DNA from: Prochlorococcaceae cyanobacterium jk18x22bins.40
Lineage (GTDB): Bacteria; Cyanobacteriota; Cyanobacteriia; PCC-6307; Cyanobiaceae
DNA: 64,000 nucleotides
NCBI GenBank assembly: GCA_022826155.1
Contig: JAJDVL010000037.1
Coordinates: forward strand, 1-64,000
Direction: 5' to 3'
Shown here: piece by piece, positions 25,724-60,085 of the stretch
How the letters are laid out: each line of letters starts with the position of its first letter
Position numbering within the stretch: the stretch's first letter is position 1
The notes under the pieces: model-generated
Told to the model about the DNA's origin: nothing
Seen by the model: only the letters and a program-made list of their open reading frames with translations
Database searches by the model: none
Translations under genes and position numbers: made by a program

Positions 25724-26083
25724 TTACTTGAGGTGGGGCATGTCTTCACCAAAGTGCTTGTGCTCGCTGTGACCGGGAAGGGAAATTTCCTCGGGAAGTG
25801 GAATTTCAATAGAGCTGACCAACTGGATCGCATCTCGCAAACGCATGGCATCCGCAAACCATCCCATGGCCTGCTCCGTGTTCCCCCGCCGTTCCGCGTC
25901 ACTGGCCTGTTCCTCGTGAGCCTCCGCCAGCAGGGCCAGCCAACAGAGACTCCGGGCTTGCACCACCGAGAGGTCCAACTCCTCAATCTGCTCATGGATG
26001 ATGCGGTCACTTTCCTGCTGCACCAGCAGCCTTAGGCGCAGAGCATGAAGCTGGGTCACGGTCTCACCCGCTAACTGGTCCAT
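25724..26083 (-). CDS. Conserved hypothetical helical protein
   Basis: This 119-residue, Leu- and Glu-rich protein reads MDQLAGETVTQLHALRLRLL, then VVQARSLCWLALLAEAHEEQ. A TPR-like helical middle (ERRGNTEQAMGWFADAMRLRDAI) and a polar, His-rich tail follow. No catalytic motif is visible. The ATG at 26083 is preferred to a GTG at 26119. It is not recognised beyond its helical character. It sits between the hypothetical gene above and tRNA-Arg, all on the minus strand. Confidence 0.6.
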   Translation of the reverse strand: MDQLAGETVTQLHALRLRLLVQQESDRIIHEQIEELDLSVVQARSLCWLALLAEAHEEQASDAERRGNTEQAMGWFADAMRLRDAIQLVSSIEIPLPEEISLPGHSEHKHFGEDMPHLK

Positions 26084-26129
26084 CGTAACGCCATGGAGAG
26101 CCTTGGCAATGGGGGCCACAGTTGGGGGA

Positions 26130-26203
26130 CGGGGCTGGAGGGACTTGAACCCACGACCTTGGCTTTAGGAAAGCCCTGCTCTATCCAACTGAGCCACAGC
26201 CCC
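26130..26203 (-). tRNA. trnR: tRNA-Arg (anticodon CCT)
   Basis: This 74-nt cloverleaf has acceptor stem GGGGCTG/CAGCCCC, D arm GCTCAGTTGGATAGAGC, anticodon loop TTCCTAA (anticodon CCT) and T arm GTGGGTTCAAGTCCC. No CCA is encoded. It is divergent from rnpB, 71 bases away. Confidence 0.95.
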
Positions 26204-26274
26204 AACAGCTTCAGCACGTCACAGAGGCGTCACCCTGAACACCAGGGAAACAGACTACCCCATACACTGGTGCC

Positions 26275-26677
26275 GGAAAGGAGGCGAGGCGACCGCGGCA
26301 CGACTGAGTTCGCTCAGTGCGTGCTGAGGAAAGTCCGGGCTCCCCCATGGCCAGGCCTGCTGGGTAACGCCCAGTGCGGGTGACCGTGAGGATAGTGCCA
26401 CAGAAACACACCGCCGATGGTCGCGGCTTTTGCCCCGGCACAGGTAAGGGTGCAAAGGTGCGGTAAGAGCGCACCAGCAGCATCGAGAGGTGCTGGCTCG
26501 GTAAACCCCAGCCGGGAGCAAGGCGAAGAACCAAGGTTGGCCATGTACCGGTTCTGCTCAAACATGCCGCTTGAGGCCTGTGGTAACACAGGTCCTAGAG
26601 AGATGGTCGCCCCTGGAGAGGAATGCATTCCATGGAGACTTCCCCAGGAACAGAACCCGGCTTATGTCCTGCTTTCC
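26275..26677 (+). ncRNA. rnpB: RNase P RNA
   Basis: This is the catalytic RNA of RNase P, which trims tRNA 5' leaders. The conserved core GAGGAAAGTCCGGGCTC lies near 26328, and the pairing 3' segment ACAGAACCCGGCTTAT near 26651. Both belong to the P4 helix region shared by all bacterial RNase P RNAs. The terminal helix P1 can be drawn between GGAAAGGAGG at 26275 and CCTGCTTTCC ending at 26677. That gives about 403 nt, normal for a cyanobacterial type A RNA. The last 14 bases overlap the start of rnc, which is encoded on the same strand. Confidence 0.93.
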
Positions 26678-27422
26678 ACCCCCTTCCCCCACCCCCCAGC
26701 GCCAGGCCCGGCTCCAGGCTCTGTTGCAGCGCCTCGGCCTGGATTCCCTCTGTCATCCCCCGGCACTGGCGTTGGTGGAGGAAGCCCTGACCCACCGCTC
26801 CGCAGGCTTGGCCATCGACAACGAGCGGCTGGAGTTCCACGGGGATGCGGTGCTCCGCCTGCTGGCGTCCAGCTTCCTGCGTCAACACTGGCCGGAACTC
26901 CCTGTGGGTGAATTGTCTCGAGTGCGTAGCCAATTGGTGAGTAACCGGGAGTTGGTCCGCCTGGGCCAGGCCATGGATCTCCAACCCTTGATCCACATGG
27001 GGGTTCACGCCCGGCGCGATCCCGCCGCAACCACAGCCATCCTGGCGCGAAGCTGTGAAGCCTTACTGGGGGGGCTCCATGAGGCCCTGCGGCTTGGGGG
27101 TGGGGACGGGTTGCGGGAACTGTACCCCTGGCTGGAATCCCGTTGGCTGCCACTGACCCAGGAATTGCTGAGCCGGCCCCAACTCCACCATTGGAAAACG
27201 GCACTCCAGGAATGGAGCCAGGCGACCCATGCCTGCTTGCCCACATACGTCACTGAAGAGGTGGAGTCCGTCCACGGTCATCCCCGGCGGTTTGCCGCCC
27301 AGGTACACGTGGCTGGGGAACTGCTGGGCCAGGGTCGCGGTCCCTCCCGCCGCCAAGCGGAGCAAGCCGCTGCCGCCCAGGCCTGGGCGGCGCTCCACCG
27401 CCAGCCAGCGTCCCCAGGGTGA
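26664..27422 (+). CDS. rnc: Ribonuclease III
   Basis: RNase III (252 residues) cleaves double-stranded RNA in rRNA and mRNA processing. The N-terminal nuclease domain has EEALTHRSAG, the signature NERLEFHGDAVLRLLA (with His for the usual Leu) and ILARSCEALLGG. The C-terminal double-stranded-RNA-binding domain ends GRGPSRRQAEQAAAAQAW. In the third signature the Asp equivalent to E. coli Asp114 is Arg; the Glu equivalent to Glu117 is kept. The ATG at 26664 lies inside the conserved 3' part of rnpB. The frame is open upstream only through rnpB. It is followed by polA after 65 bases. Confidence 0.9.
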   Translation: MSCFPPPSPTPQRQARLQALLQRLGLDSLCHPPALALVEEALTHRSAGLAIDNERLEFHGDAVLRLLASSFLRQHWPELPVGELSRVRSQLVSNRELVRLGQAMDLQPLIHMGVHARRDPAATTAILARSCEALLGGLHEALRLGGGDGLRELYPWLESRWLPLTQELLSRPQLHHWKTALQEWSQATHACLPTYVTEEVESVHGHPRRFAAQVHVAGELLGQGRGPSRRQAEQAAAAQAWAALHRQPASPG

Positions 27423-27487
27423 TGACGTTCGCCATGGGCACTGCACAGCCCATGGCAGGCTTGTGGTCCTGCCCTGTTGTCTCGACC

Positions 27488-30328
27488 ATGGCTGACACAC
27501 CACTTCTGCTTCTGGTGGATGGCCATTCCCTGGCGTTTCGCAGCTACTACGCACTGGGGAAGCGCAACGGGGGACTGAGCACCAGCGGTGGCATCCCCAC
27601 CAGCGTGACCCACGGTTTCCTCAAGGCGCTGCTGGAGGCTGCTCAGGAGTTGCAACCCCAGGGGGTGGTCATCACCTTTGATACCGGGCAGCCCACCTTT
27701 CGCCACCACCTGGATGCCGCCTACAAGGCCAACCGTGGGGATGCGCCGGAGGAGTTCCATCAGGACGTACATAACCTGCAATACCTGCTCCGGGAGGCAC
27801 TGAGGCTCCCCGTATGCACGGCCCCCGGCTTTGAGGCCGACGACGTCATTGCCGCCGTGGCCCGGCAGGCTGTGGAGCAGGATTGGCGGGTGCGCATCCT
27901 CAGCGGGGATCGGGACCTGTTTCAACTGGTGGACGACCAGAAGGACGTGGCCTGCCTCTACATGGGCGGTGGATCCCATGGGGGGCGTGGCATCACCATG
28001 GTGGACGAGGCGGCAGTGCTGCAGAAACTGGGGGTTGCTCCCCACCAAGTGGTTGACCTGAAGGCCCTCACCGGCGACAGCAGCGACAACATTCCCGGGG
28101 TACGGGGGATTGGCCCCAAAAGTGCCGTCACCTTATTGGCAGAGTATGGAGACCTGGACGCCATCTACAGCGCCCTGGTGACCGTCAAGCCCAGCCTCGC
28201 GAAAAAGCTGGAGGCTGATCGAGACAGCGCCTTTCGCTCCCGCACCCTGGCCCGCATTCGTGTGGACGTGCCGCTGACGGAGCCACCCCCTCTCGCCCTG
28301 GTGGGCCTGGATGCCACGGCCCTGGCCAGCCAGTTGCGCCAGTTGGAGCTGCAAAGCCTGGCCCGGCAACTGGACGCCTTTCACCGCTGCTTTGGTAGCG
28401 GCGCCATGGGGCCGCCCCATGAAAAACCCCACCAGACCCACCATGAAGCTGACCAAGCAACCCGTGGTCCCCGGCTTGCGCCCCGGTTGATCACCACGGA
28501 GGCGGCATTGGCGGCGCTGTTGGAGCGCTTGGAGGCGTCCAGAAATCCGGCGGAACCCGTGGCCCTGGATACGGAGACCACCTCCCTCAATCCCTTTCAG
28601 GCGCAACTTGTGGGCATTGGTGTCTGCTGGGGAGAGGGCAGCGATGACGTGGCCTACATCCCCCTGGGGCACCAGGACACCAAGCCCCAACTGGATTTGG
28701 GTCTGGTGCTGTCCCGCATGGCGCCCTGGCTGGCCAGTGACGAGCACCCCAAATGTCTACAAAACGCCAAATACGACCGCCTGATTCTTCTGCACCACGG
28801 CTTGCGCCTCAATGGGGTGGTCATGGATACCCTCCTGGCGGACTACCTGCTGGATCCCGCCGGTCGCCATGGTCTCAGTGATATGGCGCAGCGTTACTTC
28901 GGCTTTCTCCCCACCAGCTTCCAGGAGTTGGTGGGCAACCACAAGACAATCGCTGCTGTAGAGGCGAAGGCCGTGGCCCGATACTGCGCCATGGACGTAC
29001 ACCTGACCCGCCGTCTCACAACCATTCTCCGCCAGGCTCTGGCCACGGCAGGCCCCCAACTGGAACAGTTGTTCACCACGGTGGAGATGCCCCTTGAGTC
29101 GGTGCTGGCCCGGATGGAGGCCACCGGCGTGTCCATTGACTGCAGCTATTTGCAGACGCTCTCCGAACAACTGGCTGAGCAGTTGGAGGCGTTGGAGCAG
29201 CAGGCCCATGGAGCGGCAGGGCGCCCCTTCAATCTGGCCTCCCCCAAACAACTGGGGCAACTGTTGTTTGAGACACTCCAGTTGGATCGGCGCAAGTCCC
29301 GCAAGACCAAAATCGGCTACAGCACCGATGCCGTGGTCCTGGAGCGCTTGGCGGGGGATCATCCGGTGGTGAACATTATCCTGCAGCACCGCACCCTCAG
29401 CAAGCTGAAGGGCACCTACGTAGATGCCCTGCCGGCCCTGGTGGAGCCCACGACCTGTCGGGTGCATACGGATTTCAACCAGGCGGTCACCGCCACCGGG
29501 CGCCTCTCCAGCAGCAACCCCAATCTCCAGAACATCCCCATTCGCACGGCCTTCAGCCGTCAGGTGCGCCAAGCCTTTCTTCCCGAACCCGGTTGGCAGT
29601 TGATCAGCGCCGACTATTCCCAGATTGAATTGCGGATCCTGGCCCATCTCTGTGGGGAGCCCCTGCTGTTGGACGCCTACAACCGGGGGGACGACGTTCA
29701 TGCACTCACCGCCCAAATCCTGCTGGACAAAAAAGAGGTGAGTGCCGAAGAGCGCCGCATGGGCAAAACCATCAACTTCGGGGTGATCTACGGTATGGGC
29801 CCCCAGAGGTTTGCCCGCGCCACCGGGGTGCCCAGAGCCGAGGCGCAGGAATTCCTGGACCGCTACCACAGCCGTTACCCGCGGGTGTTTGCGTTTCTGG
29901 AGTTGCAGGAACGTCTGGCCCTCAGCCAGGGGTATGTGGAAACCCTGCTGGGGCGCCGCCGGCTGTTTCATTTTGCGCCCCAGGGGCTAGGGCGGTACCG
30001 GGGTCAGGACCCCATGGCCATTGATCTGGACCAAGCCCGCCGGGGCGGCCTGGAAGCCCAGCAGTTGCGCGCCGCCGCCAATGCCCCCATTCAAGGCTCC
30101 AGCGCCGATATCATCAAGTTGGCCATGGTGCGGCTCCACGCAGTGCTGGCGCCGTTGCCTGCCCGGCTTCTGCTCCAGGTCCATGACGAGCTGGTGCTGG
30201 AGGCGGCGCCGGAGGCCTGTGCCCAGGTCATGGACCTGGTGCGCCACACCATGGAAACCGTGTTGCCGCTGCGGGTGCCCCTCCAGGTGGAGGCCCGTTC
30301 AGGGTCCAACTGGATGGAGGCCAAGTAG
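27488..30328 (+). CDS. polA: DNA polymerase I
   Basis: PolA (946 residues) fills gaps and removes RNA primers. Three domains are visible. The 5'-3' exonuclease (residues 1-290) has [29 protein letters not shown] and [16 protein letters not shown]. The 3'-5' exonuclease retains its first acidic motif, [13 protein letters not shown], so proofreading may be active. The polymerase has [31 protein letters not shown] and [16 protein letters not shown] chose the ATG at 27488 because the family begins [14 protein letters not shown]; the open frame reaches 27419. It lies between rnc and cysS on the same strand, with spacing of 65 and 28 bases. Confidence 0.96.
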
Positions 30329-59772: not shown

Positions 59773-59804
59773 GCTGGGAAAGGGTTGGAAGAAGGGGCCT
59801 CCCA

Positions 59805-60060
59805 GCCCCCATGGGTCATTTTGCTGATAAGGCTGACCTCACCCCATCTCCCTTGGGCTCAGGCGGCAACAGGGGCGGCCTGGCGAGAGAAACGAACGAT
59901 GTTGTTCGCTGTTACGAAATTGCTCTGACCGAGCAGGCTTCAGTCACCCTCCTCATGCCCCGTCGAAACCATTGCAGCCCCGTGAAAAGTGGAGCTGAGC
60001 GGAATCGAACCGCTGTCCGAAACACTGGTGTGAGCCACCTAGTTCACGGCATGTGAACCC
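59805..60060 (-). ncRNA. ssrA: Circularly permuted (two-piece) tmRNA gene
   Basis: The acceptor piece (60060-59990) comes first. It contains the T arm GCGGTTCGATTCCGC and ends CAGCTCCA. After eight bases the coding piece starts at 59981 with GGGGCTGCAATGGTTTCGAC. GGGGCTG pairs with CAGCTCC to form the tRNA-like acceptor stem. The resume codon GCG is at 59909-59907 and the tag frame ends with TGA at 59861-59859, giving ANNIVRFSRQAAPVAA. This tag is the marine Synechococcus type. CCA is not encoded. The 3' limit of the coding piece is approximate. Trans-translation rescues stalled ribosomes. Confidence 0.9.
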
Positions 60061-60085
60061 TTTTAACGTAGCACAAGCACCATGG

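Follow-up and report, generated by a model that had tools for sequence, protein, structure and literature searches.

The Thermus rpmH and rnpA genes overlap, and in E. coli 6S RNA and ygfA are carried by a dicistronic transcript. The locus described here resembles the Thermus pair in that a gene for an RNA-processing enzyme shares its first bases with the neighbouring gene, and it resembles 6S RNA-ygfA in that a stable RNA would come from a transcript running on into a coding gene. It differs from the Thermus pair, where two coding frames overlap, by joining an RNA gene to a coding frame, and from 6S RNA-ygfA, whose genes are not known to share bases, by 14 shared bases that include a start codon. 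In E. coli, RNase III autoregulates its synthesis by cutting a stem in the 5' UTR of its own gene (rncO), according to excerpts of PMC5371410. As at rncO, a structured RNA 5' of rnc would here limit RNase III output post-transcriptionally; unlike rncO, the leader is formed by the RNase P ribozyme, contains the start codon and has no known RNase III site. In other picocyanobacteria rnpB and rnc are neighbours as well, and the difference lies in the rnc start, which is found past the P1 helix of the RNA in 96 of 107 family genomes. A literature search, with most subscription papers outside its scope, returned no published report of an rnpB-rnc overlap.

The window (the whole stretch of DNA analysed, 64,000 nucleotides) belongs to the genus of the sponge symbiont Candidatus Synechococcus spongiarum. 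RF00010 matched positions 26277-26679 of the plus strand with 246.9 bits (gathering score 100; E 3.6e-79) over all 367 model positions (1-367 of 367, not cut off), corresponding to a full-length class A RNase P RNA. It is the only rnpB copy in the genome and, with the 5' strand of P1 added, spans 26275-26679. In P1, GGAAAGGAGG (26275-26284) pairs with CCTGCTTTCC (26668-26677) with one G.G mismatch. In P4, AAGTCCGGG (26331-26339) pairs with CCCGGCTT (26656-26663) with one bulged base. The P19 stem-loop (CCTGG...CCAGG, 26612-26648) shows indels of 1, 2 and 12 bases across the genus; the helix names P4 and P19 follow the E. coli P RNA structure. The ATG presumed to start rnc (26664-26666, plus strand) stands directly 3' of CCCGGCTT, and the 3' strand of P1, which falls within rnc codons 2-5, begins one base past it. 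The start codon is in this way placed within a short link joining two long-range helices whose 3' strands are made last. Counted from the A of the ATG to the last P1 base, 14 bases are common to rnpB and rnc, exactly as the original prediction had placed them. The P RNA does not end well before 26664, since the match reaches 26679, and its mature 3' end probably lies at or just past 26677. The rnc start codon is hence inside the mature P RNA, as expected of a transcript that can serve either as stable RNA or as mRNA.

The statement that the ATG belongs to a conserved rnpB segment held in part: CCCGGCTTA is conserved, but the next base varies: of 126 family P RNAs, 79 have T and 47 have C (a count from a survey that used a narrower rnc motif than the 107-genome count). 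UUAUG is ordinary in these RNAs, next to UUACG, and the ATG triplet alone is therefore unremarkable. What goes beyond chance is that, across two genera, 11 of 11 genomes have this ATG in phase with rnc, as the sole ATG, GTG or TTG ahead of the protein fold.

By its sequence, the product of rnc (26664-27422, plus strand; 252 residues, stop ending at 27422) is an RNase III homologue. It matches RNase III entries in the PDB and PF00636 (Ribonuclease_3; 57.7 bits against a threshold of 27), and it is the one such gene in the genome; its TIGR02191 match of 155.8 bits is below the curated cut-off of 166.25 for this NCBIfam equivalog. The predicted fold is helical up to residue 189 and ends in three strands and one helix, as in the C-terminal dsRNA-binding fold. 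The active-site acids of E. coli RNase III are E41, D45, D114 and E117. Equivalents of E41, D45 and E117 are kept, and an Arg occupies the D114 position (ILARSCEALLG) in 9/9 genus genomes, which leaves the set of four acids incomplete. Among 107 aligned proteins the residue at this position is Glu in 75, Asp in 20, Arg in 9, Ala in 2 and Gln in 1. A sole Ribonuclease_3 gene was found in each of the nine genus genomes; two such genes are present in each of four genomes from three other genera, namely two of the S. lacustris group, G032 (which we take to be RCC307) and G080. In G080 (L093), whose genus g72 adjoins Ca. S. spongiarum in the polA tree, the D114 position holds Ala, so loss of the acid may predate the Ca. 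S. spongiarum genus.

Conservation within helix 1 of RNase III bears on where translation can begin. L17 is invariant in 31 aligned family proteins, R13 is conserved in at least 90% of them, and the predicted helix 1 spans residues 11-23. Between the rnpB ATG and helix 1 no ATG, GTG or TTG is found in 9/9 genus and 2/2 S. lacustris-group genomes, and none occurs downstream before codon 13 in 11/11. A start further downstream would cost the protein its invariant L17 and its nearly invariant R13, and the original prediction stands on this point too. No well-placed Shine-Dalgarno sequence was seen; an AGGA ends 14 bases before the ATG. The body of rnc is under purifying selection (dN/dS 0.165 and 0.178), and codons 6-14, which link the overlap to the fold, are almost free (dN/dS 0.72). 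A codon-position test of this linker gave no coding signal (5, 4 and 4 variable columns by codon position), which counts against any strong claim of protein-level selection on it. Residues 1-3 are predicted with less than 50 pLDDT, and in one genome (G009) Ser replaces Cys at codon 3, by which the G.G mismatch of P1 becomes a G-C pair. Comparison of these sequences suggests that the shared bases are governed by the P RNA and not by the protein; the tail at the N-terminus seems to be a tolerated extension, its first five residues dictated by the P RNA. More generally, a coding frame that starts within an RNA gene can mislead the annotation of start codons.

The overlap was then compared across relatives, as the original prediction had proposed. 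It is present in 11/11 rnpB-bearing genomes of two genera: 9/9 of the Ca. Synechococcus spongiarum genus (10 genomes) and 2/2 of the S. lacustris group, a freshwater relative (4 genomes, the two others without an rnpB match). The tenth genus genome, G007, gave neither an rnpB nor a Ribonuclease_3 match, a double absence that fits an assembly gap. Family counts refer to 126 genomes out of 255 with rnpB in a draw of 300, a sample that includes added members of genera g5, g57 and a few others. In 107 of the 126, rnc lies on the same strand within 700 nt 3' of rnpB; among the 19 others, at least L093 has a divergent motif, and tblastn places rnc homology there 290 bases further on. The first in-frame rnc start is inside the P RNA in 11 of the 107. 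In the remaining 96 its distance from the ATG position is 14-30 (8 genomes), 31-60 (49) or 61-350 (39). No in-frame start was found at distances 1-13 in the 107 genomes, so that, apart from the 11, every rnc begins beyond the last P1 pair. Other families were left out of these counts because the rnc motif rule is too strict for them; in several of their genomes tblastn placed rnc a short way 3' of rnpB. Further downstream, polA (27488-30328, plus strand) comes shortly after rnc, both in the window and in the seven further genus genomes that were compared, and it is located elsewhere, away from rnc, in G032 and the S. lacustris-group genomes.

The polA tree separates the two overlap-bearing genera and forces at least two changes (one gene, with long branches); on these sequences the overlap would need two origins. 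G032 has UUACG in its P RNA and an in-frame rnc ATG at +18, which offers a simple route: a tolerated C-to-U change in the P RNA gives a new start once the old one is lost. S. lacustris has been placed in subcluster 5.3 with RCC307 (excerpts of PMC9361551). Most likely, the overlap arose without selection for control, UUACG to UUAUG having rescued, in two lineages, an rnc that lacked both a spacer and a start of its own. The overlap thus has the appearance of a side effect of losing both spacer and start codon, with competition as its consequence. The anatomy fits such a non-adaptive origin because the P RNA needs the shared bases with or without rnc (they are the same in the P RNA of relatives that lack the overlap), because rnpB-rnc distances range from 0 to more than 60, and because the codons after P1 are near-neutral.

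The cyanobacterial -10 consensus is TANNNT. In the window, TACACT at 26263-26268 is the sole TANNNT on the plus strand between 26201 and 26700; it stands 6 bases before P1 and is presumed to belong to the rnpB promoter, with a start at about 26275. A TANNNT box lies 6 or 7 bases before P1 in 9/9 genus and 2/2 S. lacustris-group genomes, and none is found inside rnpB in 7/9 and 2/2 of them, respectively. A sigma-70-type scan of 26050-27550 returned no plus-strand promoter, though it also missed the presumed rnpB promoter. Since the box lies 5' of P1, none exists inside rnpB in 9/11 genomes and both genes are single, rnc is most simply read from the rnpB promoter; judged from these motifs it probably is, and a promoter of another type may exist within rnpB. 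The lack of a -10-like box within rnpB makes one shared transcript likely, and the idea of competition needs such a transcript. A tRNA gene (26130-26203, minus strand) that points away from rnpB lies some 60 bases 5' of this presumed -10 box.

We propose, with a probability of roughly 0.6, that rnpB and rnc form one transcription unit with a 14-base overlap in which each transcript is committed either to P RNA or to RNase III. Polymerase would start at about 26275 and read on into rnc, as there is no room for a terminator between the two genes. The 3' strands of P4 and P1 would pair, as they emerge, with partners already made, hiding the AUG between the helices, and 3' maturation near 26677 would sever the AUG from the remaining rnc. 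Most transcripts would become P RNA; a few, on which a ribosome loads ahead of the closure of P4 and P1 or which mature slowly, would yield RNase III. From the overlap, its conservation, the single start codon and the absence of a consensus -10 box within rnpB, all of which can be read in the genomes, we infer the shared transcript, the kinetic choice and the low RNase III yield. On any one molecule, initiation at rnc and the folding or 3' maturation of the P RNA would then be mutually exclusive. The original prediction had held that one transcript cannot keep both an intact P RNA and the rnc start region, so that processing and translation would compete and link two RNA-processing enzymes. 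It is supported in part: an uncut precursor carries both sequences, and it is maturation near 26677 that would part the AUG from the remaining gene and folding that would hide it; the competition itself, and a regulatory link of the two enzymes, are possible. The anatomy points to exclusion, and its use by the cell as a control is possible.

Folding predictions are supportive on average. In 10/10 genomes folded, shortening the transcript so that it starts 60 bases ahead of the AUG opens up the 31 bases around this codon relative to the full transcript. The accessibility of the AUG by itself varies widely: in the full transcripts of the ten genomes it is unpaired with values of 0.19-0.73, in simple folds that leave out pseudoknots such as P4. 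This partial exposure counts against the proposed transcription unit, as do the missing Shine-Dalgarno sequence and the lack of a coding signal in codons 6-14.

The same difference in openness would also suit an rnc with a separate mRNA, short or leaderless and transcribed from within rnpB, in which case the genes overlap in DNA only and no molecule has to choose. G001 and G005 do carry one TANNNT each inside rnpB, but at different places (-358 and -105), and the 9 other genomes with the overlap carry none there; together with the scan, which also missed the presumed rnpB promoter, this makes a separate mRNA unlikely. We consider it highly improbable that RNase III starts elsewhere, at an upstream codon of the open frame or a non-standard downstream one, with the P RNA ATG unused. 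Such a start would accord with the weak constraint on codons 6-14, with the GTG at -84 and TTG at -93 that lie in the open frame of 6/9 genus genomes, and with a misannotated RNase III start in another cyanobacterium (excerpts of PMC10989914). The P19 indels, however, intervene between these upstream codons and the ATG and break the frame. In the two S. lacustris-group genomes the open frame reaches back only to -51 and -39 and offers no start codon 5' of the ATG. Downstream, the TTG and GTG codons are located in or past helix 1, most of which would be lost, and a CTG at +57, present in 8/9 genus genomes, is likewise inside it.

A harder alternative to set aside is that the overlap is real and has no consequence: the spacer was lost, transcripts are in excess, and P RNA formation and RNase III synthesis go on without measurable mutual effect. 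The identity of the P RNA bases in relatives without the overlap and the continuous range of rnpB-rnc distances both agree with this, as do the median intergenic spacers of S. lacustris, the smallest of cluster 5 at 20-25 bp (excerpts of PMC9361551), and the dispensability of RNase III in Synechococcus PCC 7002 (excerpts of PMC10989914). Yet maturation parts the start codon from its gene on every mature molecule, however large the excess, and no separate promoter was seen; we regard an overlap without effect as a plausible reading that falls short of even odds. At the opposite end, the P RNA could act as an operator of rnc, so that lagging folding, protein assembly or 3' maturation leaves the AUG open and more RNase III is made. 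Under this reading, the amount of RNase III would depend on the condition of RNase P, by way of a start codon set where the ribozyme closes, and such an arrangement would have evolved twice. A dedicated switch of this kind is less favoured because UUAUG is ordinary, the shared codons follow the P RNA and the linker is almost free, and we consider it doubtful.

With the proposed transcription unit, an essential catalytic RNA and a coding frame share bases and a single molecule is probably one or the other. This provides a test bed for the division of transcripts between stable RNA and mRNA, and for the contest between ribosomes and co-transcriptional folding of a ribozyme. The interest lies in two central RNA enzymes sharing bases in two lineages; it is kept modest by the likely origin in spacer loss. 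Because Synechococcus lacustris Tous, which bears the overlap, exists as a culture (excerpts of PMC6706942), the overlap is open to experiment.

Searched against phages, the region gave only P RNA-like and tRNA matches among the matches listed (20 of 53 records). The cyanophage matches to the minus-strand tRNA gene at 26130-26203 are annotated tRNA-Arg. An unannotated stretch of Microcystis phage MaAM05 (MW495066.1:115321-115518) is 78.7% identical to the 5' half of the window P RNA and is possibly, from this similarity, a phage-borne RNase P RNA. Elsewhere in the window, a two-piece (permuted) cyanobacterial tmRNA gene, expected for this group, was detected at 59794-60074 on the minus strand (RF01851, 277.8 bits).
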